The position numbers and the translations under genes were made by a program. Source: Antedon mediterranea (taxonomy: Eukaryota; Echinodermata; Crinoidea; Comatulida; Antedonidae). From it: a DNA stretch of 64,000 nt. The notes beneath the pieces were generated by a model. That model was given only the letters and a program-made list of their open reading frames with translations, was not told the origin of the DNA and did not search any database. Below are positions 14,494 through 61,383 of the stretch, piece by piece. How positions within the stretch are numbered: the stretch's first letter is position 1; every line of letters begins with the position of its first letter. The DNA lies in assembly GCF_964355755.1 (NCBI RefSeq), contig NC_092680.1, positions 14,919,001 through 14,983,000 of the forward strand, written 5' to 3'.

Positions 14494-17400
14494 ATGTGTC
14501 GTTGGTATTTGGTTGTTCTCTTTGTAGTCTTTAGTTACTGTTCTATTGCTGTTTGTGATTTGAACTGCGGGTTTGAGCAAGACTTATGTGGGTTTACCAC
14601 AGAATCAGAATTGGGATGGAGAAGAAGAAATGCAAGCATGAGTCAACTACCAGAAACAGACCATACTCTTAGAGCTGAATCCGGTAAGCAATGTTGTAAG
14701 GAAATGGTTAGTGGCACTAGTCTTAGCTATATAGGCCTACCTACCGTGCCAGTTTCAGCACAAAAGATAAGGACAACCCCAAAAAACTAATACCAATAGG
14801 GTTTACTGAATTTTAGGCTTATTTTAAATTATGAGATATCTACGTATATGACCTTCTATAAATCTTAAACATGATGAAAGTAGTTTAAAATATTTCTTTT
14901 ATTCTGAGATTGAGTCTTTTTGTAGTGTTTCTTCTTTTTAGAAACTAGAAAAAAATTACAAATCTAGAGTCGAGAATTTATTAAACATATGAAAAAGAAG
15001 GAATCTTACATTTTTGGTCAAATTTCCATTATTAAAACACTTGCATTGTCTAAGTTTATATATAACACAAGTATACCGTAATTAATGTTTCAAAAGATAT
15101 TATAAAACAAATAGAAAAGCTACTACTATATACGTTTCATGGGAACTAGAAGTGAAAAGATAAAAAGAACAATCTTAATTAAAAATCTCAAAGAAGGTGG
15201 TTTAAACATGCCAGATATTAGCTCTGTGGCTGAATCACTTAAACTAAATTTGGTCAAGCGACTGTTTAGTCCAGATTCAGGTAAATGGAAATGCATACCA
15301 AAATATTTCCTTCACCCAATTGAATATACAGAAAAAATTACTAAACTTAATTTAGATGATCATGCTAACTTGAGAGATATGCCTACATTCTACAAGAATA
15401 TGATGAATGCTGTTGTAAAATGTAATAATATTGTGTATCCAGAACCAACAACTTTAATAGAAATAAAAAATCAACAATTATGAGAAAAGAAGTTTATAGT
15501 ATCTAAAAAAACATTTGTACTTCAAATCATAGTTATATTCTGATTTTAAAAACAATTGGTGATATATTTATAAATACGAGTACGAACTGCAGGTGAAATA
15601 ATTTAAAATTTGTATAAAAAACATAATGGTTTAAATGAGTAATTTCAGGTTATGAATGCCAAACTAAATGTGTGGAAAGAAGTTATTAGAAGAGACAATC
15701 CAAATAATCAAGATGTAGGTAGTAATGATTCATTGCTGCATAAGACCATTAAAGGATTTATATACTATTAAATATTTTTATAAACAAACGTTCCAGTGAA
15801 CCAGGTTCACAAAGTGGGAATGTGAACTAAATAACGTAGAAATAGATTGGAATAAAATATGATATTATGAGGTAAGATGAGACAACTTTAAACTCCTACA
15901 TCGAATCTTACCGTGTGAAAAAAAGATTAAAACTATGGAATTTAGCAGAAAACAATTTATTTGACAATTGTATAAATCAGATTTAAAGGTGTGTTGTCTA
16001 ATTACTTTCCAGCTGAAGATAATATTACTTTGTTTAAAATTGTTACAGGAATAAAAAAAAAAACAATATTATAAATGAATTCGCTGTTTTTATTCTGTAT
16101 ATACAAGGTGTACACATAATGTCCAATGTTGAAAGAAAAGATAAAGATGAAAAAACATATCTGGATTCTTTTCACTCTTGAAGTGAAAAATCTAATAGAA
16201 AATGAACATATGTGTAACTTAAATAAGGCACAACAATAGGGTACCAAAAAAAAAACTCTGCTACAATTGATAGCATGAAATATAAATTGTGTGAAGTGTT
16301 TTTTCATATTTTCTAAATGCAATATGTGTTTATTTCTCAAATACGAATTGTATACAATAGTAGTATTATAATAAGATGACATCTGGTATGAATCGTTTTA
16401 CATACACACAGAGCCAAAATGGCATCTTGGACTTGCAGTGTATGGATTCTAACCTTACGGTTTTCATTAATTATATCATTCCATGCTATCATCCTAATTA
16501 TCTAAATTTCTTTTGCATTCCCGTTTTTTCATCTCATCCATTTTTTCTCGGTGAAAAGGGAGGATATTTATATTCCTCCTCTGAGTTTAAAGCCTCACTA
16601 CCCGAACACGGACACAATTTTAAGTACGATTTTAATGACTGTATAACCATGTTTTATCTATATATTTTAATTAACATCTTCTTTGAAAAGCAAATATGGT
16701 TCTATATTGAAGTATTATTATTATTATTATTATTATAATTATATAAATATATTGTATTTTACTACTTTTAACACTGTAAGAATCGTAATAGCCTATGAAA
16801 CAATAGAGAGGAAAAAATATGCAAATATTAATTGTCACAAATGAAGTACACACTGTCTGACGTGTCAGAGCTTTAGAGAAGAAGCATAAGCATATTGAAC
16901 ACATTTAGTGGGATAATATATACTCTATTTATTTATAATGCATTATTACTACCAATATAATTTGTGCTAAATGATCTTACTAGGTAACATTATTGCATTG
17001 ACGTGGATTGATTCCGACGAAACACAGCAACCAAGGCGCATTCGAACACCAGTAGTAAAACGAAGCGATCTTCTATATTGTCTGGAGTTCTATTACTTTG
17101 TAACAGAAATCAATAACAGAATTGAAGTGTTAATAGAACAAGATGGCCAAGCTGTAGAAACTACTTCGATTTGGAATCGTACTGAACTCGCGTCATTCCA
17201 ATGGAAACGTGCTTTGATAGACATTGATTCTGTCAAGTCGCACTTTGTGGTAGGTTTGCAACAATTAGCTTAAAAACAGTATTGGGTTTGAGATAAACAT
17301 TATTCGATGTCTAAAAGAATGAATAACAATGAACCAGTAAGGAATAATTACTTTAAGGTGCAACAAAAACCCCATAATATAATTTTAAAATTCCTGGCAC

Positions 17401-17720
17401 ATAAATGTTAGGTAAAATGAAGTCCCAAAAATGTTTTAACTACACTTCAACTATAATGGTATGGATATTATCATACCAAGTAATTATCTATAAAAGTTTC
17501 TTCTATTGTTAAGTAACAAATATTTCTGAACGTATTTAGTATCTTAGCAATTGCCAAATCTATGAACAAAGATTGTAAATGTTCTTGAAACTGATCTTTC
17601 TACTCAAATCTTATCCATAATGGTAGATTATCTTTGAAGGGACAGTCTTCGATTCGGATCCGGTTGAATCACTTATTGCACTTGATGATATTAAGCTTCG
17701 AAGTGGCGCTTGTAATCAAG
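14494..17720 (+). CDS. first MAM gene: signal peptide and MAM domain 1
   Basis: Exons are 14494-14683 (signal peptide, [18 protein letters not shown]), 16984-17249 ([10 protein letters not shown], then SIWNRTEL) and 17627-17720 ([16 protein letters not shown], final Cys in GACNQ). All four MAM cysteines are present. The GHY-type start of the middle exon is diverged to GNIIALTW. The 2.3 kb first intron holds an L1-like fragment and the third intron a minisatellite. Confidence 0.8.
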
Positions 17721-20700
17721 GTAAACAATTTGTAACAATGAGTCAGCAGTTCTATCATTCTGGTCTTTCCATAAAAAGGATTTAAAGAAGATGGTTGGAG
17801 ATCAAATGAATATAAAAATAGACGTATAACATTGTTAAATATAAAAATTTGTCTTTTATCATACTCACTTCACGTATATTTCTGAGCCTATAAAGACAAG
17901 GCTGACCACGTCGTGTTCAGGTCTGAGCCCGATTTAAAGACAAGGCTGACCACGACGTGTTCATTTCTGAACCCGACTTAAAGACAAGATTGACTATGAC
18001 GTGTTCATTTTTTAGCCCGACCTAACAACAAGACTGACCATGACGTGTTCATTTTTTAGCCCGACCTAAAAACAAGGCTGGCCATGACGTGTTCATTTCT
18101 GAGCCCGACCTAAAGTCAAGGCTAACCACGACGTGTTCATTTCTGAGCCCGACCTAAAGACAAGACTGACCACGACGTGTTCTTTTCTGATCCCGACCTA
18201 AAGACAAGACAGACTATACTATGACGTGTTCATTTCTGAGCCCGACCTAAAGACAAGACTGACCATGACGGGTTCATTTTTTAGCCCGACCTAAAAACAA
18301 GGCTGACCATGACGTGTTCTTTTCTGATCCCGACCTAAAGACAAGACTGACTATAACGTGTTCATTTTTTAGCCCGACCTAACAACAAGGTTGGCCATGA
18401 CGTGTTCAGTTTTTAGCCCCACCGTAAAGACAAGGCTGACCAAGACTTGTTCATTTCTGAGCCCGACCTATAGACAAGGTTGACCACAACGTTTTCATTT
18501 CTGAACCCGACCTAAAGACAAGACTGATCATGACGTGTTCATTTCCTCCCTTAAGAGTATAACGTAGTGGTAACATTCTAAAAATATTTAAAAGGAATTT
18601 TTTGTCTACATTCTATGTCCGACAATAGTTTTTAAGTTAGACATTATTATTCAACACAAAGAAAATAGCCTACATTAACAATTTTCTTTTTCTAACTTAA
18701 TCAAGAACCCAGATAGGCTTACAGTTTATAATGTTCGACTATCATTATTGTTTAATTTTCACACAAAATTATTTATTCCAGCATTTTAGATAACGGAAAA
18801 TAGAAAGTTAGGATATTACTTTACTTACAGAATTTGCTTGCGATTTTGAGGATTCATTTTGTCTGGAGCAAGTTACTGGATCTGACCATTTTGATTGGAG
18901 AATTGGCAGTGGACAAACGACTTCCGTTAATACTGGTCCACGCTTTGACCATACACTGGACGACACGACAGGTATTCATCTTGGAATTGTTCCATGAAAT
19001 TAACAAAAAAAATCTGACATTGGTGAAATTAAATAACATTTCAAACAGCAACAACAACTAAACATTAATATAATTTCTGATAACTAACCGATCCTTGTAA
19101 TCTTAGAAGTCGATCATTTTAAGTAGTGCCAATGATGGAACCCATAATATTTTCTCTTTCCAAGTTATTCCTTCACAGCCATTTCCGTCTGCGATGACTA
19201 TACTTCTTCATTCAAAAACAATCGTAGATTATAACACTTGATAAACTACCAAGGTGAATGAATGAATTGTGATAATGCCACGCTGTAGGATTGCCTTTAA
19301 TGTTGTTTAAGCATAAAAGTAATCTAAATCTAATTCATTGTAGGCCGTTATGCATACATCGAAACAAGCTCACCCAGACGACAGGGAGATGAAGCCATTT
19401 TGAAGACATTGGCCATCGCTCCATCATCTGACCTCAGGCCTCATTGCCTCCATTTTTGGTACCATATGTATGGTGAGCATATAGAATCTTTAACTGTGAA
19501 CATCTCTGTGGTGAATGACAGTGGACCAGGAGTAATGGTGTGGTCAAAATCTGGGAGTAGAGGAAACGTTTGGAGACCAGCGGAGATTGAACTGCGTCAA
19601 AATAACACATTTGAAGTAAGTAAACATTATGAATTATTATTCATTTAGAATATAAAAATATTTGTTTTGTGTTCTGTTCAAAATTAATAATGGCACGGTT
19701 AAAATATTACTGTTATTTAAAAAATGTTGAATCATATTTCAATAAGAATATCATTTTTGTGGTTTCCCCCACAAATTAGAACGAGAAATATTAGCAGAAA
19801 GCAAGTGATAAAGAATTCCACTCTCCGTACTCTATCTTAATTTGTTCAGTATCTTAAGGTACAGCGTCACATATTCATAACAAATGTACAGTATACATAT
19901 TTGTTTTTAAATAAAATAAAAATTGTTTTCCTGAATGTTTACAACAAATGGTTGTTGTTTCTATATCTTGCACCAAACAGAGGGCTTCAATCATACAGCA
20001 CTTTTCCTTGTTTTACTTGCTTGTAAGAGGCAAGATGGCATAACTTATTTTCTGTAAATGTTATCAAATGCTTAACAATATCCAAGTGCATCTAATAATT
20101 AAATGAATGAATGTTTTGTATTAAAATGATAGGTAATGTTTCAAGCAGTACGCGGTGCAGGAATACGTGGGGATATAGCCATAGATGATATAAGTGTTGA
20201 ATTAAGATCGTGTATTATTCATGGTATGTGTACAAATACATTGATAAAGTAGGCCTACTTATAATCAGCCTTACAAACAAATGATCACTACACGAGACAG
20301 ACAAATAAACGAACAGATTAACAGATGAAGAATTAAAAATAGAACAAATGTCTTATGAACCAACATAAACCAATGAACGAATACATTACAGTAGTGCAGA
20401 TAAATGGACATGTTAACGACTGGTTAAATATGAACGAACTTAATTCTCAAATTAAAATGGTTGATTATTTCTTTCAATTAGATCTCTCAAATGTTACTAA
20501 TGCATCATGTGAATTTGAAGAAGCTGAGGTTTGCGGCTACATCCAGGATGATAATGACGACTTTGACTGGGTGTGGAAAAATGGAGCCACGGCTTCACTC
20601 GGAGTTGGTCCGTCCACAGACCATACAATGATGAATGGCTTAGGTAAGAATAGTTTTAAATGTATCGGTACCGTCTGTATGTTAAGCTGCACTGTTAAGC

Positions 20701-23700
20701 TTGCTTCACTAGGAAACGCAATGTAAGCGAATTGACCAGTCACATGCGTTGGATTATTCGAATTTCACTTGTAATTGGTCAACACGTAATGCAAGCGTTA
20801 CGTCCTTGTATTTTGTCTCCAGTGGGAACCAATTTACACAGACGAGCGGTAACCGTAAGCGGTAAACGGTAAGCGGAAAAAATAAATGTTATTTCTTATT
20901 ATGACCATTTACATCATACGGAGTTGATGGGTGGTTGAGCGGTGGTTAATTGTAGCTTAACAAAGATGTTCACTTGATGGTCTACACAATGACAACGTGT
21001 AACTATAACCTGCCATGGGAAGTGAGCTACTGCCATAAAGGTAGGCTTACTATCGACGCTGCAAGTATTCTATGATTAAGTTTATAAAGTCCACATATGG
21101 TTATTATGGTGGTGTAATTAAAGTTAATTAGTTAGTTTCTAATTGTCACCATTCTTTGTTGCATTCTCGTTAGATAATATTTGAAAGGACTCAGGATAGA
21201 TGCATATTTTACGTGGGACAAGCACTTTACAGCAGCTCATCTGTATAAATCTATTTTTATTCATTTTCTCTGCGTGTGATGAAACTGAAAATAATTGTGA
21301 TAGTGTCAATCAATATGATGACAATCCTCGGATGATGAGGATAAACATGGAATAAGAAAAATTACATTATTACAGCATTTGTGTAAAATGCCTTTTAAAT
21401 CCACCATGTGGTTTAAAATTGCTAAATATCTTTAGAACCGTACAGTACATTCGAGTAAAATATCAATACATAATATTGTTTTCTTGTTAGGTTTTTATAT
21501 GTATGTAACAATGACAGATCCGCGATTACAAGCACAGACTGCTCGTTTTATATCACCAAAAATAACTAGGCCAGAAAAATCACACTGCCTGGAGGTTTGG
21601 TACCACATGTATGGAAATAGAGTTTATCAAATGTTATCCGTATACAAACTCGATGCTGACCAATCAGAAATCAAACTGTGGAACGCAGATGGTAACCATG
21701 GTGATTACTGGCATAGAGCGGCGTTTGAAGTAGAAAGTAAATCTTCATATAAAGTATGTTTTTCATTCAATAAATGAGAAAATCTTATTTTAGTATGATT
21801 TTCTGTTTTGTATTGTTTTTTTTAGGCTATGTACGGAATTTTTATTCTGAAATAAAGTTATCAATCAATCAATAATTAGTAAAATAATTCACATTATATG
21901 AAGCTACACTACCAAACTTCATGTGACAAAAAAAAAATGTGATGTTTCCATATATGGACATGATGATGTCATATCACTCTCATGTTTGGAAATATCACTA
22001 CCATATTTGGGCACATCACACTTTTTTGTTAAATAGTTTGATTGTTTGATAGTGTAGCTTAACAAAGATGTTCACTTGATGGTCTACACAATGACAACTT
22101 GTAACTATAACCTGCCATGGGAAGTGAACTACTGCCATAAAGGTAGGCTTACTATCGACGCTGCAAGTATTCTATGATTAAGTTTATAAAGTCCACATAT
22201 GGTTATTATGGTGGTGTAATTAAAGTTAATGGTTGCTGTTTCTAATTGTCACCATTCTTTGTTGCATTCTCGTTAGATAATATTTGAAGGGACTCTTGGA
22301 TATTCTACATTTGGCGATATTGCTATTGATGACGTCATTGTTACAGAGGGGGTATGTCAAATACATGGTAAATATGCATGATCCTAACTTTAAAATAGAG
22401 ACTTATTTTATGATTCAACATGTATCTGGAGTTAATTTACATGAGATAAGAAAAGGACGACAAAACGAAACACGGCAAGAACAAAAAGCAAAACTGCACA
22501 GTGTAGATGACATCAACCGTTACTGTGGATTGTCACAGTGAAAAGTTTAATGAGCCTTTTCCATTATTCGAAATATTCATGCCATACCAAAGCTGTTCAT
22601 TCATTAACATTTAACGAACGTGGATATACATATTGTGTATCGAATATCAAATCAGAAAACTATTTTCTTTTCTATTCGAAAGTCTACAACTTATACACAT
22701 GTCTTTCATCCTGTTCTTATTATAGCCGTCACAACACCTCCACCGCAGCCAGAAAACACCGTTACGAATATTTCATGTGAATTCGAAACACGTGATGTCT
22801 GCAACTACACTCAAGGTATATATGATGATTATGACTGGGTGCCAGGTCAGGGCGGTGGCGTCATCTTTGGGCCTCAATACGACCACACTCTGCAATCATC
22901 ACGTGGTAAGATATCATTTCATTGGTTTATAATTATCATAATCAAAGTACTTTAAGTTATTACCGTTTTTGCATTACCAAAAAGTGCAAGACAATTACAA
23001 TTCTTATCTTTATCTTCTCTTGTAATTATCACTATCTATTATAATCATTACGGTTTCCACGATTTAGTCAAATTATGTGTTCATACCATTTTAATCGTCT
23101 TTAATTTAATTATTTATATTATCTAATAATATCTCTTGTTGAGTACCCAGAGTTCACTTTTATATATACAAAAATGTCAAGCTATATGCATCAAATAATC
23201 GGAATTTCACATCTATGGACATTGTTTTGTGTTCTAGCGATGATTTATGTTTTTATATAACGATTAATTATTATTAATAATATTGTGTGTATCGGGACTT
23301 CACATTCCTTAATATTTGCTTCTTATCCTTATACATTATTATACAGTATTTTATTTAATAAAATGCATTCTGTAATAAACGTTCAAATACGTTTTCGTTT
23401 CGAACATTCTAATTGTTTCTTTTCAAATACATATTACTTTTGAAACATATAGTAATGTCAATTTCGTTTGATTTTCTTTCTAATTTATACGGACTAAAAC
23501 ATTCGGTATTGGCTAAATTCAGTCGTGTCTTTAAAACATCATCATCAGTCGGCTGCGGAGCAGGCGACTACAAGCTTTCTCCAGCCACAACGGTCCTTGG
23601 CTAACTCTGACAGCCTATCAGAGGTAATCATGCCTCCTTCATCCCCTAAAAGCTGTTGGATGTATCTCAGAAAGTTGGTTCTCTGCCTTCCTCGTTTTCT

Positions 23701-36700: not shown

Positions 36701-37467
36701 TCATGTATTGCTTGACTGACTTAACTATAACTTTGTGAAGATAGGACAGAATTTTTCAAAAGCCGGCGAGCAGTCTTAAAGTAACAAGTAAACTGAAATT
36801 GCATTTTCTCGAGAACTACTTGTCCAAAAAACTTCATTTTTGAACAAGAGGCAAGAGTTATAATTTGTGATTTGTAATTTTAAAACGTAATCTGATTTAA
36901 TGTGCACGTTTTTTGATGCGGGTAGTTTAAAAAACCTATTTCTTTTCAAATTCACTCGTTTGATTTTCGCGTTGCTGTTCTATTGTTAGTCGACTGAAGC
37001 TATTGTTAATTGAAAGGCTTGTTACATTACCATTACACCAAACTCGCATACACATGCTTGTAATGAAATTAGCCTAAATCACAAACAGCATTAAGACCCG
37101 GAGAAATCTTATGTAGGAGAATTTTACAGTAGGCGGAGGTATGCCCTCTCGGAGTGGCTTTCTAGTTCGTTAATTTATTCTGACTCTTTCCAGAATTCCG
37201 GAAACGCGAAAAACTATTAAATGGTTTTATACTTAAATATCTTTGTGTATCTTTGACATCAAAATGTTATAAACATTCAGGATTATTTCAGCTTGAATTT
37301 GAATATAAGTTTTCAAATAAATCAAACATTTTCTTACCAATGCTTTTAAAATAATCATTGAAATCCAGATTTATGTTGTTTTTCTAATCTGTGAATTTGT
37401 TTTATTCGTCCTACAGTTTACGATCACTTATGTTCGTGTTCAATATTAACAAAATAATTGAATTGAC

Positions 37468-37549
<82 letters not shown>

Positions 37550-37559
37550 TAATTAATTA

Positions 37560-37590
<31 letters not shown>

Positions 37591-40500: not shown

Positions 40501-43500
40501 CCGGTTGATAAAGCTAACTGTTTATATGGCAGTTTTTACTAAATAAATTGCATAAAACGAACAATTAAATATCCAAATAGCATTTAACATGATGTTGGCA
40601 TGTAGTTGATAACATTGTTTATCATGAAAATACTACCGGTGGTCTAGCCTTTGATTAGTGAAACCGTCACAAAAAGTTGTATACATCCCAGATACATCCA
40701 CACTTATGGCGGCGCCCTACCACGGACATGGACAATATTACTGTTACAGGGAAAATCGCGGAATACTCATTCTTGTGATATAATATTCTTTGATAATAGT
40801 GACTAGTATGTTTCTACCCTTCTTTGTATAAGTGTCTTATATTTTTCAATCAATAGTGACTAGTCTCATATCTTTTTTCCAATCCTTGTTTGTATAATAG
40901 TGACTAGTATCTGTTTGTATCCTTCTTTATAATAGTGATCTATATTCACTTTAATATCTTTCTTCTATTTTGTACATATTCATTCATTATTATCTAAATA
41001 AATATTATCTGAATTATCTGAATTATCTGAATTATCTGACTTGTATATTTTTCAATCCTTCTTTGTATAATAGTGACTTGGCTTATATATTGTTCAATCC
41101 TTCTTTGTATAATAGTGACTTGGCTTATATATTGTTCAATCCTTCTTTGTAAAATAGTGACTTGGCTTATATATTGTTCAATCCTTCTTTGTATAATAGT
41201 GACTTGCCTCATATATTTTTCAATCCTCTTTATGTAGTGACTTGTCTTTATAAATTTAAAACAAAATATAATATAAGCATACCAAGTAGAGACCTTTGAG
41301 TTGAGCATGTTTATGCTGAATAAACGACACTAGTTATAACATACTTTTTGTTGTTGCTAATTTTATAATATATATATATATATATATGTGTGTATATATG
41401 TTCGAGTCTCGGTTGGGGTGACTTTTTCTCATTCTCACAGATTTCCTCATCTTTATCGTTTCAAATTAATTAATTATATTTCAGTATATCACCGGGCGGT
41501 TTAGAATTAATGTGCCTCTTGTGTTTATATATATATGTGTGTATATATAATTTGCTCGACAAAAAAAACGGTCTAACATTACTATTGTTTTTGTCATTAA
41601 AGTATTCAATTGTACCTTTGAGGGTGACAATTTCTGTGGTCTTCAAAAAGGTGCAAGTACTGATAATTACATCTGGAGTCTTCACAGCCGGGCAGATACT
41701 TACAATGCAGGGCCCTTTTTTGACCATACACACGGGGATGAAAACGGTTAGTAATGTTTTCCAATTGTTCATTTGTTCGTTCATTCGTGTTATAAGTGTT
41801 TTTCAATCGTTCATTTGTTCTTTATTTGTTTGCTCGTTCGTATGGTTCGTAAATGGTATTATTATTATTAAGATCTTTATTGTTGAATTATCACATTCTT
41901 TATTGTTATTGCCACTTACTTTAATAATTGTAACACAAACACAGGGCATTATGCGTTCGTTGATACACATGACTATAACAGCATTAATGACACGGCAGTA
42001 ATATTGACACCGGTACTACACAACTCTGATACAAATAGTTCAAAATGTTTGATCTTTTGGTATCATATGTATGGACTCCACATCGAGACTTTAGATGTGT
42101 TTTTGTTAACAATGCAAGACAATTTACCGGGAAGAAAAATTTGGAGCAAATCTGGAAGTAGGGGGAATGTATGGAGGGCGGCAGAGGTGGAATTGTCAGA
42201 AGAAAACAGTTTTCAGGTAGGTATCATGACAGTGAATCAGTTAGTAAAGAGGTATGATGTTCGTCTAAAATGTTTAGTTTGACAATGTGTCATAAATCAA
42301 TGAGAAAAAGTAAGCCAAGATGTATGCTCGAAAATAATGAAATAATGCGCGTGCGTGAGGTAATTTATTGCATGATCGTAATCAAAACGGTACTGGGTTT
42401 GGTCTACTAGCGTTCCTGATCCCAATCCGTCATCTATTCATAGAAGCCTTGATGGAGTAAGCCTTGTTCATAGATATTATTATTATATTACTAATAACGG
42501 TTTGTAACTACTAACATTTTAAGAGAGTGGGAGAAAGCATAAACACAAGCTAGTTCAGCTAGATTTAATTTTTCTGCAAAACATGAAAAAACGCACGGTT
42601 ACACAACCAACATTACTACTGAATGAAAATATGCATACAAATAAATTAAACACTCAGTGTTTCAATTTCGTTGTTTCCTTTAATTTCACATATATTACTA
42701 TTAGTCATCGTTGCATAGTATATTTGCACACATTAGGTATATCGGTAAGGATGTAAGTGACATCCGTTAGGTAGATTGTGGAATTTGAGGGCAAAATAAT
42801 TTCCCAGAATTATACCATTATAATTTATTATATTAATATAGTATCTTGTATTGAAGCGATTCTGTTTTGTAAGGCCCTTTTACAAATAAACTATTACCTA
42901 ATGCAATTCAGTGTTGTTCATCAATGTAAAGTCATGTAGTATATTTACGTCTATATTTAGATAAGTACCGTACTTAATTAAAACATTATTACTATTACAT
43001 TATAATTACCGCAATAACAAGCTTATAAAGCAAATTAATTTTCATTTTATTGTGGGAATATTCGAGAACAATCACATCTGTTAAATGTAATACATGATTT
43101 GGTAATACCTAGCCATACATTTTGCCATCAATCTTATAACTTTATGAATAAAAATACAAAGGTTTAGTAGATTAATACACAGAATAAATTGTAATTATTG
43201 TAATATATATTAATATTTTCTCTGTTAAATCATTGTATGCGATTGGATACTCTACATTTGAACTTTATAATATCAAACATCTTTTGCAGGTTGTTTTCCG
43301 AAGCATAAGAGGCAGTGGGCTAGATGGTGATATTGGTGTTGATGATATCGTAATACGAAATGGGTCTTGTAGGAACACTGGTAATAAACTTAAATAATTA
43401 CTGTTGCCTATTAGTTGTTTTATTTTATATACTATAGTAGGCTGTGGTTATAGAGTTGCAATATATTTCATAATGGCACTGCTTTTAATATAACAACTCC

Positions 43501-46500
43501 TATGATACAGTTTCTGATATACTTTCCTAATACCTGTATTCATACCTATTAATTTAAATCATCGGACTTATGAAATCGTAGGTCTACTTTATTGTAAAGT
43601 CATTTAAATTGTATACAGTTATTCAAACTGGTTACAAATGACTTTTAACATTTATTGTTTTTACAATTCAAGGTGAGAAAGAAGATATAGGTGTATCTTG
43701 TAAATTTGAAGAAACGCATATTTGTGGATATACGCAGGCTATGGATAATGATTTTCCTTGGACGTGGACAAACAGCGCCCTTGGATCAAAACATGAAGCG
43801 CCCGGAATACCTACAATCGACCACACGAAAAATACAGGCTTAGGTAAACTATATATTATATATATTACACGTCACCGTTGTATCACCTGGAAAATGGTCC
43901 ATACATGGAGGTATACCTCTATGGTCCAAGGTGCCGTCAAATGGGTTATCAGTCAGATTTATGAGTCAAGATCCAAGTTTGCAATTATGATTCATTAGTA
44001 TGTAATTCAATGCTGCGGTAGGAAAATCTTATCATTAATCAATATTATGTTTGTTCTGTCTAAATTTAACATGAACATGTAATGTTCACCTTAAATTTGT
44101 ACCAAAGCCCTGATTGATTGACACGATATAACTAAAGCTTTGTCTATATTATCAAACTTTATGTGACAAAAAAAATGTGATGCGCCCATATTATGGACAT
44201 GATGATGTCATGTCACTACTATATTATGGCATATCACTAGCATATTTGGGCATGTCACACTTATTTTGTTAAACTACTTTGATAGTTTGACAAAGAAGTT
44301 TGATGTACCCAAATATGGTAGTGATGTGACATCATCATGCCCATATATGGGCACATCACATTTCTTTTCACATAAAGTTTGATAGTGTAGACAGGGCTTA
44401 AGATTGCACAGTCGGTTGGTCACCACTTTTGAGATTTTTAACAATTGTTTAGTTAACAGACGTATCAAAAGTAGGGAAAACCTCCTCATGTTTACAGCCA
44501 AGGGTTTATGATGTACAGCATTTGAATCTAATATCATTTCTTAGTAGGCCTATAGCACAATGTTCAACAAATTACAAATTTCGACATAGTATTTTTTTTT
44601 GGGCTATTTCGAAATGTTGACATATTTTGACGTATTTTTGTTTTATTTATTTCTTTTTTGCTTTTCGACATAGCTATATTTATGTGGCAGGATTACTGTA
44701 GGCTTTCTTAATAACGTCTCTTTGCCACAGTTTGTCCCGAAGAATCATTACAAGTCCTAATTCATTTATCCTGAAATAAGACGACACAATTAAAGAACGT
44801 GTGCAGAATTATCCGTTTTGAATATGATGTAGGCTTATCATAATGTCCGATATTCTACCAAACGTAGATTTTATAATGTTGTAATTATAGCGGATACATA
44901 TAAAATTGTACAACATTAATTTTTTCTATTACCACGACAACATGATGGGCTTTGGATTAAATCCTTTCAATTTTTTTCACATGCAGAAATGCATGGTAGA
45001 TTTTGACATTGACAGTATTTTAATTATCTTTCAGGTTTTTTCATGTTTGCTGATTTTCGAGAGTCTATTATGATAAGACAGTCATCCAGACTCATCTCAC
45101 CCTTTAATGACGATACATCTAAACAGTGTTTAGAGTTTTGGCATTTTATATATGGAACAACTTCACAAGAACTTAGGGTTTTATTAAATCAATCAAATAC
45201 AATCGAAGTGATATATTCTATCAAAGGTAGCCGAGGAGCTTATTGGCAAAGAAGTGCAATTGAAATTACACCTACGGTTAAAAATCAGGTACATTTAAAC
45301 ATGAACTAGAAATAGTGTCTCAAATTAGGGGTGTCTCCAGAATAGGCGTTGGCCGTATAGTTTTAAAAGCATATATTGCTCCCCGTTCATTTCACCAAAA
45401 AGTATGGTGTATCAAGTAAATTGTAACTCGAAAAAAGTAGCATAATGAACCGCTTTTGATCCTAATTAAAAGTAGTCAATTGTTAAACGATCTTAATTAA
45501 AATTGAATAAAACCTCTTTAATTTAGAGTGTTAAATATGTAAAATAAATCGAGTCTAAATGAATTCTGAATTCATTTTATTTTTAGATTGTTTTTGAAGC
45601 AAAGTCAGGGCTATATCCAACAGGTGCAGTAACAATTGATGACGTTTCTATGTATAGAGGAAACTGTAAGGCTGCTTGTAAGTTGAATGCTATACTTACA
45701 GTATTAATGTTTCAGGTTTTATTAAGATGAACAATGTATGTATATACCTAGATTTACATGTTACAATGTTAAATCAAATTTATCTTCGCCAGATTTTATT
45801 TCATAATTAATTTATCAGATGTTTCTGCGATCTAGTTCATAAAACTAAAGTAATCTGATTCGTTTTTTTATTTACACAGCCCCAACAACTACACCTAAAA
45901 TAAAAACGGTGACAAACGTAGATTGTAATTTTGAAAGCGACGATCTTTGCGGATATATCCAGGCTATAGACGATGATTATGATTGGACGCTTCAATCTCC
46001 TGCTATCATGAAGAAGTATTACTCAAACATTTGGTGGTACCGGTGGTGGGGCGTGGGACACGAGTGGTATCCACTTTCGGACAGAACTGATCCACATTCT
46101 GATAAAGGTAAGACAGACACAGATATTGTTTTAAGTTATTTTATTATGGCCGATTTTTGTCGTGAACGACAATACCAATTAGTCTTATATTCATATGAAT
46201 TATAGATGGAACTAAGTCAGGACGGTTTAAAGCACATTTGGCTGGTCCTATTAGTGATCTTAACTAGAGGAGAGACATAAGCCAATACGTCTGAGGAAGA
46301 TACTAGATGCAGGGGCTGTCATGAGAGTCAGCAGTGCTGATTTAAAATGCATAATGCCTTACAGCCTATACAGCACCCGATATTCCCAGATCTCTCATCC
46401 AAGCTCTAACCGGGTACAACGTTGATTAACTTCGGTGATCTGACGAGAACCGGTGTTTTAACTTTCAAATGGCGGATATTATAACGAATGAGACAACTGT

Positions 46501-49500
46501 ACGTTTTATTTCTGTTCTGTTTGACTAAATTGTACCGTAAATCTAATATAAAATAACCCAAAGTTGTTCTTGTCTTTAAGGATATTTTTTGTATAACGAA
46601 GTACCATTTTACTGGTATCAATGGTGGTACGATATTGGGAACACGAATGGTTTGGTTGCTCGTTTAATGTCCCCGTTAATCGAACAAAGTGAAACTAGCA
46701 CCTGTTTAACATTTTGGTATTACAAACAACAAGAGGAAAGTGACTTTTTGAATGTGTATGTGCTGCCATATAATCAGGTTTTATATGGTGATCCTTTGGT
46801 CGATTATTTTGGAGGCTATGGCAGTCGATGGATTTTTCAAAAAATTGATATACCAGCATCAGATCATTTCCAGGTTAGTATATTTTAAGGTCACGTTGAG
46901 CTTTTGATTTGCAAAGACTATGTCATGTTAATTCGTCATAAATTTCCACTAGAACGTAACGCAATGACATAAACGCAACGCAAGCGTGTTAACCAATGGC
47001 AAGCGACAGTTCGAATAATCCATCGCTTGTGATTGGTTAATTCGCTTGCGTTGCCTTACGTCCTTGTGTTTCGTCTCTAGTGGGAACCAAGCATAAGCGA
47101 GCCTCAAATTTAAAATGATTTGGTATCACATGAAGCTATAGATATTACAATGTTTAGTTCATCAACAAATGAGATTATCTCGCTTTTCTCTATTGCATGT
47201 TTTTTTAATTGAATTATGTTAATTGGTCAGATGCTTCTCTTATACTACTGTGAGGTACAAATTTCGCCAGAGTAGGGCAAACATCTGACCAAATACTCCA
47301 CACCCTGACGCAAAGCTATTCCACAGTAGTTAGTTACAAAGAATTACAATCCTGTTGCGGTACTCACTGCTTACTTAGGCGAATCTACCCCTAGCCATCA
47401 GTGCAAGCTCGGTGATACAGAGGTATAGACGTCAGGCTAATGATCTGGAGGTCGAGGGTTGGAGTCCCACCCTATAATTTTTTCAGAAGTATTCTTAATC
47501 ACTTCAGAGTAGGACAAACATCTGACCATATTATTACTTAACACTCTGACGCAAAGCTACTCCACAGTAGTTACAAACAGTTACAATCCTGAAGTAAATT
47601 ACTTTTGCAATGGCAGGCGGAACCATTGTCATGAAAACTTCAGTAAAGTCTTTAGTAAAACTACTAATTGTCAGATATAATATGTAAAGTTTTTATTTTT
47701 ACAGATAATTTTTGAAGTCACAAATGGAGCTTGGCATTACACGAGTAGCTTTATTGATGAAATTAAATACACAAGATCACCTTGTGATGATGGTAAAATC
47801 ACATTTTATTCTACATTTTGAATTACCATGAAGATTATACCACCAGTAACATAACTATAAAGAACAGAACAACAGTAAGATAGTATACGTGTGGCTATTT
47901 CATTCATTTATCTGCTACGAAACATCCGACCAATTACCTAACTTCCTGACGCAAAGATAAAAGATTAATTGCTAACGTGAACACAGACCGGGATAAAGAA
48001 CAATACAGTTATAGGCCTATTAACTAGCCAAAATGTGAGATTGTAATTTAATTCCAAAGATATTTTGGACGAGTGCAGGCCCCAAATTTTACCTTTTTTT
48101 GAAAAAAAAAAATTGTCGATTTAACCTCCACCGACACACATCTTTTGTTTATCTGAGCCTCCCTCCGTAGATAAGACTTAATATTTTACATTTCAGAGGA
48201 TATGAAATGTGACTTTGAAAAAGGTTTTACTGATTGCGAACTTGCAGCAGATCCGTCTAGTAAGTATGGATTCAAGTGGCAGCTTTCAAGAGGAAACACA
48301 GCAACCAAGGATACTGGTCCAAGCGTTGATCACACCTGCAGGGACAACAACGGTATTTAATTTATTAATTGTTTAAAAAAATCCTAATTTTAGATGTATT
48401 GTCCACCAAAACACGGAAAATTAACATAATCATTTGTAGTTCCAATAAAATGAATTATTATTATTATTATTATTATAAAATAAAATGAGCTACATGGTTT
48501 AGCCGAATATGGAATAAAAGAAGTAGTTCTGCGATCAATCGCCTTACAGATCTCTGGGCGCAATGTTCCCGGATATTGATTCAGGCGACACATGCGCAGC
48601 AATTAATGGAAAAAACACTAAATCATACGTTTATGTAAAGACAAAATCATTTAATATTCATGAAAATATATAATATATATATAAAAAAATATAACTAGAT
48701 TTGAACTCGTCACTTTGACAAGTTCGGGTTATCCGCGCAAACGCAACATGCACATACTTTAAACTATATGAACCTCGACAATTATTATGCCATCCTATGA
48801 CATGAAATAAATGTGTTTACAGTGCTGAATTGTACCTATTTTGTAGCATACATCATATTACAGTATTTACAGAATACACTGTATATGTTATATACAGTGT
48901 AGGATAGACGAAATTACGAGACCCATCTTTTAAATCCAATTATTAACACGATAACGTCATCAAATTGACATATTATAACATAACAATTTTAGAAGATAAT
49001 TATCTAATTAATTACATTAATACAAATTTGAAAAATCTTGGGCACGTAAAAGTGAGATGCGCTCTCGTTTAAGCGCAATGAACTTTTACGCAAGAGATGA
49101 AAATATGAATTTTTGAATTTAACTGGCCATATGATGACGTCACAACATCTGATTGGCAAAATAATTACATGAATTCGTATCTAAAATCCAATGGCTTCCA
49201 GAAAACGTTTTAATCATGATTATCACTTTTTATTCTGACGAGCTATAACAGATTGAAATTTACTGTAAAGATGAAAATAGGTGACCCACGTTATTTACAT
49301 TTTTAGACATGATGACGTCATAAAAATTAAAATATTTTTAACTTATGCGAAAGCTAGTTGATTTACATAGACAGCATTAAAATATCTGAGGAAATTGAAT
49401 ACGTATAAGCGAGATGCGCTCTATTTAATGTGATAAGCAATAACGAAAGAGTAAAAAATCCTATATTTTACATTCGTGTGGCAATACAATGACGTCATAA

Positions 49501-52321
49501 CATCCGAGGGGTAAAGATTCTGCATGAATTCATATCTACAATATATCTGCTTACATATAAAATTAAAAAAATTGGGGGTCATGGATGATTCTGAGGAGCT
49601 ATAATAGATTAAAAATAGGCATAATTTTGACAATATGCTGTCACTTTTGCAACTAAAACGCGCGCAAAATGGTCTAAGTCAACGTGTTCGTATGACGTCA
49701 TTTTAATTTGAAATGTTGTCAATCTTTTTTAAAATGACTAGGAAAGGCTATAAGATTATAATTCAAAAGAAAAACACATGATTTTCATGCTCTGTGTGCA
49801 CCTTACGCGTACAATTTTTCGCGCGCGTGGGAATTTTTGACATGCTCAAAATGTCATGATCAGCGTAGAAAGTTGATAAGAAATTAATTTTGCGCATTTT
49901 GAAATTTTAAATGCGCGTGCGCGCGTAACTTTTTGTGGACTATTAAACCTCATCCATTATCTAGTCAGCCACGAGAAAAAAAGTGGGCTGGTTTTCCCAA
50001 GAAAAGGGAACAATCTCTGTTGAAGAAGCCATGACTGTGAAAAGTTATCAGGTTGAAACCTTACCAACCATACTGGTGGCTATGGCCCTGTTCTATTTCC
50101 GTTTACTCTGGATACTTACTTAATGTTAATGGACCTAGGTATAGATTAAATTCACTTAATCATAAAATAGATTGTCTAATTAATAATTATTTGCCAGTAA
50201 TGTGTTTACTTGAATTATATTGAATTAGGTGTTTACATATACATCGATGCTTCTCAACCTCAGCGTCCAGGCGATACGGCAACCGTGGCTACTCACTATT
50301 GGAAACAATATAACAAAGATACCTGTCTTACCTTCTGGTATTATTGCAATAACAGTTTTGCCGATAGTTTGGTTGTTCACAGTCATTCGAAAAATAGGAA
50401 AACTGTTCTATGGAAAATGCCAAGGGTGTTCGAGAGTGACTGGAAGGAAGTTAGAAAACAGTTATCGCCACAGAATGCGTCTTATCAGGTACGGAAGTAC
50501 AATAACATTATTTTTCTACAGTACGGTATATCAAGATAAAAAAACATGCTCTTTCACAGTATTGCTTTAATGTAAGATATATGAATATCAATATGAAGAC
50601 TAAAGTTCGGTTGATACCTATAATTTGTTCTACTTGCCATTTTACTATTTTGGTTGTTTGTTGCACTATTATAGCGTCCATAATTTATCGTCTTTAATTT
50701 TTGGCGTTAATAAGTATATTTAAGGAACATGCATATTGATATATTTGTGACGTCATAAAATCTTATTACTGTATATTAACATTTCGAATTACCTGTTCCT
50801 TTAATGTTAGAAGCATTTTGTATAAGTACTTCACTCGCCTTGTTTATTATTATATGTTCCCATCGTTTCGTACTGAACAGATTGTATTCACGGGAACAGT
50901 CGGGGAAAGTAAACTTGGCGACATTGCTTTAGATGATATATCATTGTCATCGACCCCATGTTTTGAACAATCTTCATTATTACCACCACCACCCGAAGCC
51001 ATCCCGAATACTACATCACTCCCAGTAAAAAGCTATGATTGTGCTGCAGATAAAGGGAAGTGCACAATTACTCAACTGTATTCAGATCAATTTAATTGGT
51101 TGTATTCAGGTAAATTATCTCAGTTTAATAGTGTTTGATTAAGCGACATCAAAACGAACCTAAGGAGTTTTCTACCGTGTTCTTTTCTCATCGTATAGAA
51201 TGCATACATTTGCATTAGACTTTTACTTGTTATTGTTCTACAGAATATGACAGTTCCTACATGTGTAGTTCAAAGAACAGGTACATAGGACAGAAGGCAC
51301 AGTTGAAAACGCCACAATTTGTAAAAGAGAACCGGCAATGTCTTACAATCACTTACAAAACTACTGGTGTTTCTGTTCCAATACTCTCTGTGTTAAGAGT
51401 GGAAAGCAAAAGTAAAATTCAACGTCTTTGGAAATCGGATACAATAGCTGACGAATGGACAACTGCACTTGTTTCAATAGATAAATCTCCAACAAGTTAC
51501 AGTGTAAGTAACTAAATAAAAGGGCCGTAAATAACCATACTGATTTATTCAATTATTAATCCAAAATAATTATCGTACAAACATTTTTCGAACCTTACTT
51601 TAACGTAGATATTAATTGAAGCAATGGTGACAGAAAGTGGAAATGGAACAGTATTCATTCAAACAATAAACATGTCATCGGGAAAGTGTCCAAGTAAGAA
51701 ATCACAATATGGATTTTGTTTCATTGTGACTCCAAAGGCTCGAATGTTAAAATCTTCTGTGCAAACAATCCGCTCAAATACCATGTTGGTGTTTTCTATC
51801 AGTTTATGAAATACGTGATTATGTTCTATACCCTCTACCAATTACTTTTCGTCGGTAGATAACAGAGACATTTAAATAAGTATTATAATCTATAGTGAGC
51901 CTTGGCACATGGTAGACATTGTTAGCATCATGTTGTACGCCTGACAGAAGAACTCGGTACACTAAAAAAAAGTCTAATCCTATCTAATAAAATCCAATTT
52001 ACATTAATGATTATGTAACTTTTATTGATGTATGTAGCAAGCAAGTTGCTATTTATTACATACCGATATCTTTAATGATTTAATGTTTCAATTACACATT
52101 ATGTTGTTTATATTCATTTTTCAGATTTATCATCCAGTCAAGTTGCGCTCATTGTCGTCATTATCTTAGTCTTGGTCGCGTTGGTGGCAATATCATTGGT
52201 TTTGTATCGATACCGAACAGCATTGAGGAGCTTCAATATAAATGTTCGTCATCAGACTTTAAGCGAAGACGTTTCCATTGGAAAGGTCCAAAACGATAAA
52301 TCACCGATTGTGGACCCATAA
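31653..52321 (+). CDS. eight-MAM-domain type I membrane protein (1446 aa, 24 exons)
   Basis: I assembled 24 coding exons totalling 4341 nt with all 23 junctions in frame. The protein has a signal peptide (VLLMICMCSTGVLTRA, then Q), eight MAM domains (about residues 25-176, 177-342, 343-507, 508-676, 677-848, 849-1051, 1052-1217, 1246-1381), a transmembrane helix (about 1387-1408) and a 38-residue tail without an NPxY motif. It is the downstream paralog of the six-MAM gene on the same strand, with the same cassette phases and the same fused exon before the last MAM. MAM2 and MAM3 have no clear partner in the first gene. An upstream in-frame TTG at 31632 is not needed; the ATG at 31653 starts the signal peptide. 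AATAAA at 52978-52983 is a polyadenylation candidate. Confidence 0.85.
34171..35993 (+). CDS. second MAM gene: MAM domain 2
   Basis: Exons are 34171-34311 (FICDFEGTSFCM, GPSADHTLG), 35052-35320 (GHYAYLETSYYGYYDKYAR, CLIFWYHMWGVHIDKLSVY) and 35906-35993 (IIFEANKGNG, GDIAVDDITI, final Cys). The usual D.DW of exon A reads ADFDL. No counterpart is evident in the first gene. Confidence 0.85.
37095..37165. mobile_element. right end of the ACCTCCGCC-type element
   Basis: GAATTTTACAGTAGGCGGAGGT with CTCTCGGAGTGGCTTTCTAG matches the right end of 7484-7995 and keeps the GGCGGAGGT that the other copy has lost. Confidence 0.55.
37468..37598 (+). repeat. (TCAA)n microsatellite
   Basis: More than 25 near-perfect copies of the tetramer TCAA, interrupted around 37550 by an AATTAATTAATC change. 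Confidence 0.95.
37957..39890 (+). CDS. second MAM gene: MAM domain 3
   Basis: Exons are 37957-38094 (FQCDFDHEACYEQ, DDDKDW, VGDHTSS), 38698-38960 (GKYAFLDAQYLRE, FCLKFWYIVSG) and 39797-39890 (ISFQGKGGLEGQGFIAIDDIK, final Cys). The donor after 39890 is GTGACT, which is also the first unit of the minisatellite that follows. No counterpart is evident in the first gene. Confidence 0.8.
38402..38436 (+). repeat. G-rich run with quadruplex potential
   Basis: Four or more runs of at least three Gs, including one run of about 16 Gs, lie in the intron between exons A and B of MAM3. It is the only such tract in this AT-rich window. Confidence 0.7.
39379..39563. mobile_element. MITE family 2, copy 2 (best preserved)
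   Basis: The left end AGCTTGGTTCCCACTAGAAC followed by GTAACGCAAGGACGTAAACG, and the right end CGTTACGTCTTTGTGTTGCG with CTAGTGGGAACCACGCTT, are inverted repeats of roughly 60 bp. It is non-coding and lies in the MAM3 B-C intron. Confidence 0.75.
39953..40792. mobile_element. 840-bp DNA transposon with about 44-bp TIRs and a 7-bp target duplication
   Basis: The left end CAAAGAATATATATCACAAG continues to AATGAGTATTCCGCGATTTT; the right end is its inverted copy. A second inverted pair lies inside (CGGATGTATACATAC on the left, GTATACATCCCAGATACATC on the right). ATAATAG flanks both sides (39946-39952 and 40793-40799), a likely target-site duplication. No transposase frame is present, so it is non-autonomous. 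It has inserted into a unit of the surrounding minisatellite. Confidence 0.85.
40938..41041 (+). mobile_element. LINE 3' end relic with (ATTATCTGA)n tail
   Basis: About 89 bp match 61289-61377 with few differences (TTCACTTTAATATCTTTCTT, ATTCATTCATTATTATCTAA). It ends in four copies of the 9-mer ATTATCTGA, against two at the other locus. Confidence 0.7.
41398..41560 (+). mobile_element. 5'-truncated copy of the tRNA-like SINE
   Basis: It begins inside the tRNA-like part (GTTCGAGTCTCGGTTGGGGT) and continues TTTTTCTCATTCTCACAGAT, TTCCTCATCTTTATCGTTTC, AAATTAATTAATTA, then TTTCAGTATATCACCGGGCG and a TATATA tail. The two copies at 56.5-56.95 kb are the same sequence in reverse. It ends just before MAM4 exon A. 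Confidence 0.75.
41603..43380 (+). CDS. second MAM gene: MAM domain 4
   Basis: Exons are 41603-41746 (FNCTFEGDNFCGL, GPFFDHTHG), 41945-42216 ([45 protein letters not shown]) and 43290-43380 (VVFRSIRGSG, GDIGVDDIVI, final Cys). It is the counterpart of MAM2 in the first gene, the most similar cassette pair I can see. Confidence 0.85.
43673..45677 (+). CDS. second MAM gene: MAM domain 5
   Basis: Exons are 43673-43843 (VSCKFEETHICGYTQ, GIPTIDHT), 45035-45288 (GFFMFADFRES, CLEFWHFIYG, KGSRGAYWQRSAIEI) and 45587-45677 (IVFEAKSG, VTIDDVSMY, final Cys). The counterpart is MAM3 of the first gene. A MITE family 1 copy sits in the A-B intron. Confidence 0.85.
44134..44400. mobile_element. MITE family 1, copy 3 (longest)
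   Basis: Inverted repeats of about 85 bp: the left arm has TATCAAACTTTATGTGACAA, ATGTGATGCGCCCATATTAT and GATGATGTCATGTCACTA; the right arm is the reverse complement with a few changes. The outer ends AAGCTTTGTCTA and TAGACAGGGCTT are also inverted. No coding capacity; it is almost wholly palindromic. Confidence 0.8.
45880..47792 (+). CDS. second MAM gene: MAM domain 6
   Basis: Exons are 45880-46107 (Thr/Pro linker, VDCNFESDDLCGYIQ, DDYDWTL, a Trp-rich insert NIWWYRWWGVG, LSDRTD), 46581-46873 (GYFLYNEVPFYWYQWWYD, CLTFWYYK, YGDPLVDYFGGYGSRW) and 47705-47792 (IIFEVTNGAW, then SFIDEIKY, final Cys). The aromatic inserts in exons A and B are unique in the row. The counterpart is MAM4 of the first gene. 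Confidence 0.85.
46265..46476 (-). mobile_element. 5S rRNA-derived sequence (5S pseudogene or SINE3-type element)
   Basis: Reading the minus strand from about 46476, the sequence follows 5S rRNA: ACACCGGTTCTCGTCAGATC, ACCGAAGTTAA, CAACGTTG, CCCGGTTAGAGCTTGGATGA, GAGATCTGGGAATATCGGGT, GCTGTATAGGCT (end near 46362). Several positions differ from a functional 5S gene (TGGATGAGAGATC in the internal control region, changed 5' end). About 95 bp of unrelated sequence (AGCACTGCTGACTCTCATGA and on) follows, as in 5S-headed SINEs. It lies in the MAM6 A-B intron. Confidence 0.7.
46938..47095. mobile_element. MITE family 2, copy 3
   Basis: Ends TTTCCACTAGAACGTAACGC and GTCTCTAGTGGGAACCAAGC; the interior has AACGCAACGCAAGCGTGTTA and ATCGCTTGTGATTGGTTAAT, also seen at 39379-39563. 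It starts about 65 bp after MAM6 exon B. Confidence 0.7.
47268..47595. repeat. pair of 85-90 bp direct repeats around a tRNA-like segment
   Basis: Blocks 47268-47353 and 47503-47595 share AGAGTAGG, CAAACATCTGACC, CCTGACGCAAAGCTA (CTCTGACG in the second), TCCACAGTAGTTA and ACAATCCTG. A third remnant with ACATCCGACC and CTGACGCAAAG lies at 47925-47965. Between the two is a tRNA-like stretch (47408-47475: GATACAGAGGTATAGACGTC, GGTCGAGGGTTGGAGTCCCA) with A-box and B-box resemblance. It is probably a SINE flanked by copies of its own target or body. Confidence 0.5.
48197..50961 (+). CDS. second MAM gene: MAM domain 7
   Basis: Exons are 48197-48352 (MKCDFEKGFTDCEL, FKWQL, TGPSVDHTC), 50229-50488 ([25 protein letters not shown]) and the first 81 nt of 50881-51109 (IVFTGTVGES, LGDIALDDISL, final Cys). 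The counterpart is MAM5 of the first gene. The 1.9 kb A-B intron holds tandemly arranged, diverged repeats. Confidence 0.85.
49040..49690. repeat. two diverged tandem copies of a ~360-bp segment
   Basis: GAGATGCGCTCT, then ATGACGTCA followed by AACATC, then CATGAATTCRTATCTA and GAGCTATAA occur in the same order at 49050-49260 and again at 49410-49620. TGACGTCA palindromes recur about every 180 bp across 49130-49700. Source element unknown. Confidence 0.5.
50962..51693 (+). CDS. second MAM gene: linker and degenerate MAM domain 8
   Basis: The rest of exon 50881-51109 encodes a Pro/Ser linker (SSLLPPPPEAIPNTTSLP) and a reduced exon A part (YDCAADKGKCTI, FNWLY) with no CxFE and no TGP..DHT. Exon B is 51244-51503 (SSYMCSSKNRYIGQ, QCLTITYKT) and exon C 51609-51693 (ILIEAMVTES, TVFIQTINM, final Cys). 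As in the first gene, the acidic DD of exon C is lost and the cassette-separating intron is absent. Confidence 0.75.
52125..52321 (+). CDS. second MAM gene: transmembrane and cytoplasmic exon
   Basis: The helix VALIVVIILVLVALVAISLV is followed by a basic stop-transfer (YRYRTALR) and a tail ending KSPIVDP. The tail has Ser/Thr residues in acidic context (TLSEDVS) but no NPxY, so any sorting or signalling differs from the first gene's product. Confidence 0.85.
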
Positions 52322-57035: not shown

Positions 57036-57302
57036 ATAAAAGAAAAACAACAAAGGAGATAGAAAAGGTGAGGGTAGAAAACAAAGAAGATAGCTTGGTA
57101 GATATAAACAATATTGGAATGGAACCAAAAAACAGCTAACATGTTGGTTAATATTAAAACTTAAATCTGAGAGTATGTTCCTAATGATAATTCCAAATGA
57201 GTTTTTCTACAGCTGAAAAAAAATGTAATGTAAAAAGTATACGTAGATCTAGGCCTACTTGTTTTGATAAACTATAGCTTATATAAAAAAGAAATATAGA
57301 CC

Positions 57303-61380: not shown

Positions 61381-61383
61381 CTA

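Follow-up and report, generated by a model that had tools for sequence, protein, structure and literature searches.

A tandem array of at least eight genes for MAM-row membrane proteins in Antedon mediterranea, with dispersed relatives suggestive of an endocytic ancestry

The analysed window is a 64,000-bp stretch of the genome of the crinoid Antedon mediterranea (C11:14919001-14983000; the genome comprises 354 Mb in 18 contigs). It contains two genes on the forward strand, G1 and G2, whose exons were identified with exon profiles (HMMs) built from the window itself, followed by splice-site refinement; exon-HMM matches of weak score (E-values up to about 2, partly on the minus strand) did not enter the gene models. 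The coordinates are collected in Table 1. The joined exons of both genes contain no internal stops and all introns are GT-AG; since splice sites were picked as GT-AG and in phase, this shows the existence of a consistent model rather than transcription. Both proteins have a hydrophobic N-terminal leader (judged by eye) and one C-terminal transmembrane (TM) helix (Kyte-Doolittle). The Pfam search found MAM domains (PF00629) in six stretches of G1 (635.5 bits) and eight stretches of G2 (714.5 bits), both above the Pfam cut-off of 26.4 bits, and no other Pfam family in either protein up to an E-value of 0.1. The description offered by an earlier sequence-only reading, in which each protein consists of a leader, a row of MAM domains, a single TM helix and a short tail, with MAM as the only domain, is borne out by the spliced models and Pfam. 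The same reading took the two for separate genes, and the models support this: a TM exon and a stop codon end G1, and a separate leader opens G2 1.2 kb downstream, which leaves a single fused gene unsupported.

A MAM module is typically encoded by three exons, A (phase 1-1), B (1-0), and C (0-1), so the module as a whole is of phase 1-1. In both genes the C piece of the penultimate MAM and the A piece of the last one lie within a single exon.

Table 1. Features of G1 and G2 (window coordinates) and extent of G3-G8 (coordinates of the extended window). P1-P6 are position labels of MAM modules.
Feature	Position	Strand	Details and evidence
G1: leader, 6 MAM, TM, 44-aa tail	14494..30446	+	18 exons, 1148 aa; spliced model, Pfam
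G1 start codon, likely signal peptide	14494..14562	+	in-frame ATG, hydrophobic leader; exon shared with start of MAM1
G1 MAM1 (P1), three exons	14563..17713	+	exon HMM matches, splice sites
G1 MAM2 (P2; 11-residue motif), exon start to last Cys	18831..20213	+	exon HMM, splice sites; top score with G2 MAM4
G1 MAM3 (P3), exon start to last Cys	20482..22357	+	exon HMM, splice sites, tree
G1 MAM4 (P4; DDPL..YGDYG), exon start to last Cys	22726..24879	+	exon HMM, splice sites, tree
G1 MAM5 (P5), exon start to last Cys	26718..28494	+	exon HMM, splice sites, tree
G1 MAM6 (P6)	28639..29858	+	splice sites, tree; A part and MAM5 C part in exon 28414-28756
G1 TM helix and cytoplasmic tail	30199..30446	+	NPLY codons at 30399-30410
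G2: leader, 8 MAM, TM, 38-aa tail	31653..52321	+	24 exons, 1446 aa; spliced model, Pfam
G2 start codon, likely signal peptide	31653..31733	+	ATG, leader
G2 MAM1 (P1)	31734..33703	+	exon HMM, splice sites, tree
G2 MAM2 (probable extra P2-type copy)	34171..35986	+	exon HMM, splice sites, tree, scores
G2 MAM3 (probable extra P2-type copy, long branch)	37957..39877	+	exon HMM, splice sites, tree, scores
G2 MAM4 (P2; 11-residue motif)	41603..43370	+	exon HMM, splice sites, scores
G2 MAM5 (P3)	43673..45667	+	exon HMM, splice sites, tree
G2 MAM6 (P4)	45880..47785	+	exon HMM, splice sites, tree
G2 MAM7 (P5)	48197..50961	+	exon HMM, splice sites, tree
G2 MAM8 (P6; A and C parts degenerate)	51037..51689	+	tree; A part fused to MAM7 C part, exon 50881-51109
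G2 TM helix and tail, without NPxY	52125..52321	+	Kyte-Doolittle TM, tail scan
G3	64830-82599	+	945 aa, 5 MAM
G4	95651-113473	+	1457 aa, 8 MAM
G5	117275-133725	+	1479 aa, 8 MAM
G6	144218-155782	+	1482 aa, 8 MAM
G7	159255-172840	+	1493 aa, 8 MAM
G8	179546-192921	+	1502 aa, 8 MAM

Other features of the window lie within introns or between genes. A G2 intron contains a tandem repeat at about 40955-41250 (+) that is open across several units (FNPSLYNSDLAYIL). A zf-RVT match in a G1 intron (25605-26492, minus strand) and RVT_1 matches between G2 and G3 (57300-58358 and 61373-62218, plus strand) are probably LINE-type elements. Just upstream of G1, an open frame at 12473-13066 (+) has a leader-like hydrophobic start, an Asn/Pro/Gly-rich stretch, one hydrophobic helix and a short basic tail, with no Pfam match up to E 0.01.

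In the 201-kb region examined (C11:14919001-15120000, i.e., the window and the next 137 kb), G1 and G2 are followed by six similarly built genes on the same strand, up to C11:15.112 Mb; past C11:15.120 Mb no further MAM match near the array occurs among the matches listed. At least eight genes, all in one orientation, make up the array, and their products are type I membrane proteins consisting of MAM rows. The earlier description as a tandem pair captured the tandem duplication with collinear domains but not its scale: the six additional genes rule out a mere pair, and at least two relatives exist elsewhere in the genome. The models of G3-G8 contain a leader, a MAM row, a TM helix and a short tail, and no internal stops; the TM helices of G4, G5, and G7 were identified through their likeness to that of G6, and the stretch 186186-186716 of G8, counted as two exons, is probably one. 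Pfam was run on G1 and G2, and the MAM domains of G3-G8 were called by the exon HMMs from the window. Linkers between adjacent MAMs of G1-G8 are 3-48 aa long and free of cysteines, with the exception of one G8 linker with a single Cys; because they are so short, G3-G8 appear to have no room for extra domains. The single-pass type I build with several MAMs and a short tail recurs throughout, the tails being 28-56 aa long over ten genes (the array and two dispersed relatives).

The exon joining the C piece of the penultimate MAM to the A piece of the last one is present in all eight array genes. G4-G8 have the P4-P5-P6 trio twice, as MAM3-5 and again as MAM6-8. At the DNA level, G4-G7 can be aligned along the bulk of their exons (3532-4243 bases per pair) and little of their introns, while the exonic DNA of G1-G3 and G8 has almost nothing in common with that of other array genes. 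A DNA match between G1 and G2 (248 exonic and 1811 other bases) was rejected as a sign of shared introns, since it comes from overlapping flanks included in the comparison. Two matches outside the genes, to the G6 tail exon at 142698-142727 (E 1.3) and to the G8 tail exon at 194242-194310 (E 0.002; both in extended coordinates), are perhaps remnants of lost copies.

The order of domains is largely collinear between G1 and G2. The pairing 1-1, 2-4, 3-5, 4-6, 5-7, 6-8 has a total score of 1474.5, the top of 20160 injective assignments, with the runners-up at 1449.5 and 1448.5. Starred pairs in the tree of the 59 array domains are G1_1/G2_1 (98/92), G1_4/G2_6 (99/94), and G1_6/G2_8 (100/91); G1_3/G2_5 (99/63) is inside a starred trio with MAM2 of G3, and G1_5/G2_7 has support of 94/70. 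No supported grouping exists in this tree among G1_2, G2_2, G2_3, and G2_4, pair 2/4 included. Forcing the G1 domains together costs 92 log units (p-AU 1.8e-8) and forcing the G2 domains together costs 77 (p-AU 1.9e-6), so clustering of the MAM cassettes within each gene, the outcome that would have contradicted the proposed pairing, is ruled out by the AU test. The weak link is the first pair: G1_1/G2_1 scores 128 vs. 130 for G1_1/G2_7, and in a larger tree of 97 domains the pair splits, with G1_1 joining the P4 group (97/87) and G2_1 adjoining a domain of the C7 set described below (82/75), both on long branches. Overall, the collinear pairing is confirmed, pair 1/1 being weak.

Two further details of the sequence-only reading probably require revision. 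MAM2 and MAM3 of G2, said to have no partner, have their best scores with G1_2 and H1_2 (MAM2 of the dispersed relative H1) among the G1 and H1 domains, which makes them look like additional modules of the P2 type; in the 97-domain tree they group with these domains at 86/77 and 99/80, with the long-branched G3_1 inside. A single clade of G1_2, G2_2, G2_3, and G2_4 has p-AU of 0.467, being neither rejected nor demonstrated, and we consider the two domains to be probably derived from the G1-MAM2 type. Secondly, the 10-residue motif proposed as a diagnostic insert of G1 MAM5 and G2 MAM7 is close to YIETSSPR of many C7 MAMs, and given this likeness it is probably a retained general MAM motif.

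The two relatives outside the array are known from separate exon matches. H1, at C11:1.652-1.668 Mb, contains a TM exon and six MAMs and keeps the module order including P2; no leader exon could be assigned with certainty at the locus, so that its topology is deduced from the TM exon. For H2, on the minus strand at C6:3.3125-3.3255 Mb, a leader, a TM exon, and five MAMs were identified, P2 being absent. In both, the C and A pieces before the last MAM are again fused in one exon. To place them, the 97-domain tree combines the 59 array domains, six of H1, five of H2, and 27 from the C7 set, i.e., the domains of a MAM row on contig C7 with complete adjacent A, B, and C matches, other C7 domains being left out; the last MAM of H2 was included without its C part, and G1_6 is two residues short.

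In this tree, domains of all ten genes fall on one side of a branch for P6 (99/98), P3 (93/93), and P5 (79/75), whereas P1 requires five label changes, P4 three, and P2 and C7 two each. All seven labels together require 9 changes (the minimum is 6) vs. a mean of 61.3 after shuffling, and none of 200 shuffles was as low; the labels were assigned after the 59-domain tree, and the near-identity of G4-G7 favours clustering. The homology of the modules and the relation of H1 and H2 to the array are demonstrated by these groups, and, as read from the tree and the exon maps, the module order of the family is P1-(P2)-P3-P4-P5-P6, with the A piece of the last MAM fused to the preceding exon. Given the position-specific groups shared by the array, H1, and H2, there seem to be two array lineages, one with P2 (H1, G1, G2) and one without (H2, G3, G4-G8).

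Domains of H1 and H2 are mostly nearer in the tree to the C7 MAMs than array domains are. Mean distances to C7 are 1.94 (H1) and 2.36 (H2) vs. 2.70-3.57 in the array for P1, 1.97 (H1) vs. 2.33-3.45 for P2, and 2.00 (H1) and 2.13 (H2) vs. at least 2.44 among the array domains listed for P4; G5-G7 domains are represented at P1 and P3 only. The exceptions are at P3, where G3_2 (2.27) equals H2_2 (2.28); at P5, where G3_4 has the smallest distance (2.01) and G8_4 (2.27) also lies closer than H1_5 (2.36); and at P6, where G3_5 and G4_8 (3.80) lie closer than H1_6 (3.98). Array copies have probably changed faster for the most part, though not uniformly, as G3_2, G3_4, G3_5, and G4_8 illustrate.

The MAM domain is strongly expanded in this genome, with at least 151 matches in a profile search of its contigs. 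At C7:20.588-20.708 Mb, dozens of canonical MAM domains extend over about 110 kb, nearly all matches being on the plus strand; this row has one LDLa-like motif (forward frames) and probably represents one or several MALRD1-like giant genes. At C11:7.958-7.9745 Mb, two adjacent loci contain two MAMs apiece, with a TM-like helix after the first, and may be a further pair of MAM receptors. Other clusters are located at C3:33.8-33.9M, C6:24.3M, C10:21.4-21.5M, and C4:19.9-20.3M; many of their matches extend to profile position 150 or further without a break in the open stretch, as most B exons of the C11 array do not, which suggests another exon structure.

Pairwise dN/dS was calculated among G4-G7, since dS was saturated or undefined in comparisons with G8. 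The ectodomain values are 0.29-0.40; by domain they are 0.27-0.56 for domains 1-4, 0.14-0.22 for domain 6, and 0.21-0.43 for domains 5, 7, and 8, and the highest 20-codon windows by domain reach 0.68-1.11. With pairwise dN/dS below 1, positive (diversifying) selection is unsupported among these genes, by pairs and by windows. Domain 2 of G4 and G7 differs at 22 of 101 synonymous sites, compared to 38-59% in the other domains of that pair (p=9.5e-7), and this is the only one of 48 domain-by-pair tests below 0.05/48; neither G5/G6 domain 2 (p=0.0015) nor domain 3 of G4/G7, which is more divergent (p=0.0031), falls below the threshold. Gene conversion or unequal exchange of domain 2 would produce the G4/G7 pattern, and we take it as a sign of either.

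These data bear on the possibility that the array is a polymorphic self/non-self or immune recognition locus supplying variable receptors. A tandem array of eight related receptor genes, the exchange sign in G4/G7 domain 2, and the dN/dS of domains 1-4 exceeding that of domain 6 all agree with it, yet the whole-ectodomain ratios (0.29-0.40) stay under 1, which such a locus would be expected to exceed, and the window maxima by domain are 0.68-1.11. We regard this explanation as quite unlikely. The more general expectation of an expanded family of recognition or adhesion type is supported.

The NPxY motif is present in three of ten cytoplasmic tails, as NVDNPLY in H1, AVDNPAY in H2, and VIENPLY in G1, and is absent from the other seven, those of G2-G8. 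In 200000 shuffles of each of the three tails, NPxY arose in 0.6-0.8% and Phi-x-NPxY in 0.21-0.27% (0.2-0.3% when rounded). A possible YxxPhi sorting motif in the G7 tail (YASF) and loose PDZ-type motifs at the ends of the H1 and G5 tails were given no weight. NPxY recruits PTB/clathrin adaptors for endocytosis, as in the LDL receptor, and also serves PTB signalling without uptake.

The likely uptake signal in the tails of H1 and H2 suggests that the family began as receptors carrying bound material into the cell. We infer the functions of G1-G8, H1, and H2 as follows. The MAM row of the founders would bind a protein or glycan ligand outside the cell, and their tails (VDNPLY in H1, VDNPAY in H2, IENPLY in G1) would recruit PTB/clathrin adaptors, by which the bound material would be internalised. 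Tandem duplication would then have produced the array copies, with ectodomains mostly changing faster and tails mostly lacking the uptake signal; these copies probably remain on the cell surface and serve in recognition or adhesion, or as decoys, for related ligands. Belief and doubt are about evenly balanced in our assessment of this reading, in which an old MAM-only family with endocytic-receptor founders was amplified into an array mostly devoid of the uptake signal. It is favoured by eight stop-free spliced models, all with a leader, MAMs, a TM helix, and a short tail, by the position-specific domain groups and the exon fusion common to all ten genes, by the three NPxY tails, and by the mostly greater distance of array domains from C7; the counterpoints are the seven of eight array tails without NPxY, G2 among them, the use of NPxY in signalling, the uneven acceleration in the array, and the five and three label changes at P1 and P4. 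A combined version seems very unlikely. In it, the array would be a MAM-only immune or allorecognition locus, with H1 and H2 as conserved endocytic founders outside; its copies would have lost the uptake signal and duplicated the trio nearest the membrane, and they would swap parts of domains and differ from one individual to the next.

Another account, in which a dispensable gene was duplicated and its copies drift without having gained a role, would explain why most have no NPxY and why P6 domains such as G2 MAM8 are degenerate. It is hardly credible in view of eight open models of 945-1502 codons and of dN/dS well under 1 among G4-G7.

The third alternative is homophilic or heterophilic cell adhesion, in a tissue or between gametes, similar to the role of MAM in RPTP-mu or MDGA; the tails would then be anchors, and NPxY in three members would bind PTB scaffolds. 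Long ectodomains of 5-8 MAMs with short linkers and a single TM helix would suit this role. Also in its favour, a profile built from 27 of the 59 array B exons and run against solved structures matched 18 sequences, of which MDGA1, neuropilin-1, enteropeptidase, and RPTP-mu came first; an SR-C-like protein was among the others. On the other hand, G1 and G2 have none of the Ig, FN3, or catalytic domains of RPTP-mu/MDGA-type proteins, and no sign of self-binding appeared in this analysis; we consider this adhesion account rather unlikely.

Returning to the proposed endocytic founders, the family counts ten or more MAM-row genes, and in nine or more of them both leader and TM helix can be read; its founder-to-array history is traceable, with the shared exon fusion as a marker. 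A tail motif found in both dispersed relatives and one array copy, and absent elsewhere, makes for a clean case in which to ask what MAM rows bind, and whether an array of receptors can originate when an old uptake receptor is separated from its sorting signal.

Well-studied MAM proteins mostly pair this domain with others. RPTP-mu/kappa, neuropilin, MDGA, meprin, and enteropeptidase, whose solved MAMs match the B-exon profile, carry Ig, FN3, CUB, phosphatase, or protease domains alongside it; none of these was found by Pfam in G1 and G2, and G3-G8 were judged by linker length only. MAMDC2 resembles the array in being MAM-only, but is secreted and has four MAMs and no TM helix. No tandem array is known for MAMDC4/endotubin, the apical endosomal glycoprotein. 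Endotubin is otherwise similar, being a single-pass endosomal protein with a large ectodomain and a short tail of 40 aa whose residues set its endosomal location (PMC11125477), and having MAM domains (PMC4890752); the latter paper also ascribes LDL-receptor domains to it, unlike the array. MALRD1/Diet1 shares the long MAM rows, and the C7 array of this genome resembles it, but it combines MAM with LDL-receptor domains (PMC4890752). Pfam detects no LDL-receptor domain in G1 and G2, and forward frames of the 201-kb C11 region contain no LDLa-like motif, with the proviso that a motif split by an intron would escape such a scan. Insect scavenger receptor class C is, like the array proteins, a MAM-bearing membrane receptor, one that binds and takes up foreign protein: according to PMC6191154, the MAM domain of Sf-SR-C binds a bacterial protein with Kd of 463 nM and the receptor mediates endocytosis. 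The same paper describes CCP, MAM, and somatomedin B in one protein, whereas CCP and somatomedin B domains are absent from G1 and G2 by Pfam. A MAM-only receptor array of this kind is not described in the openly licensed literature searched, which is a weak negative. By domain content (Pfam for G1 and G2, linkers and the motif scan for the rest), G1-G8 are not endotubin, MALRD1, RPTP, MDGA, or SR-C; by analogy, founders of the H1/H2/G1 type may work like endotubin or SR-C.
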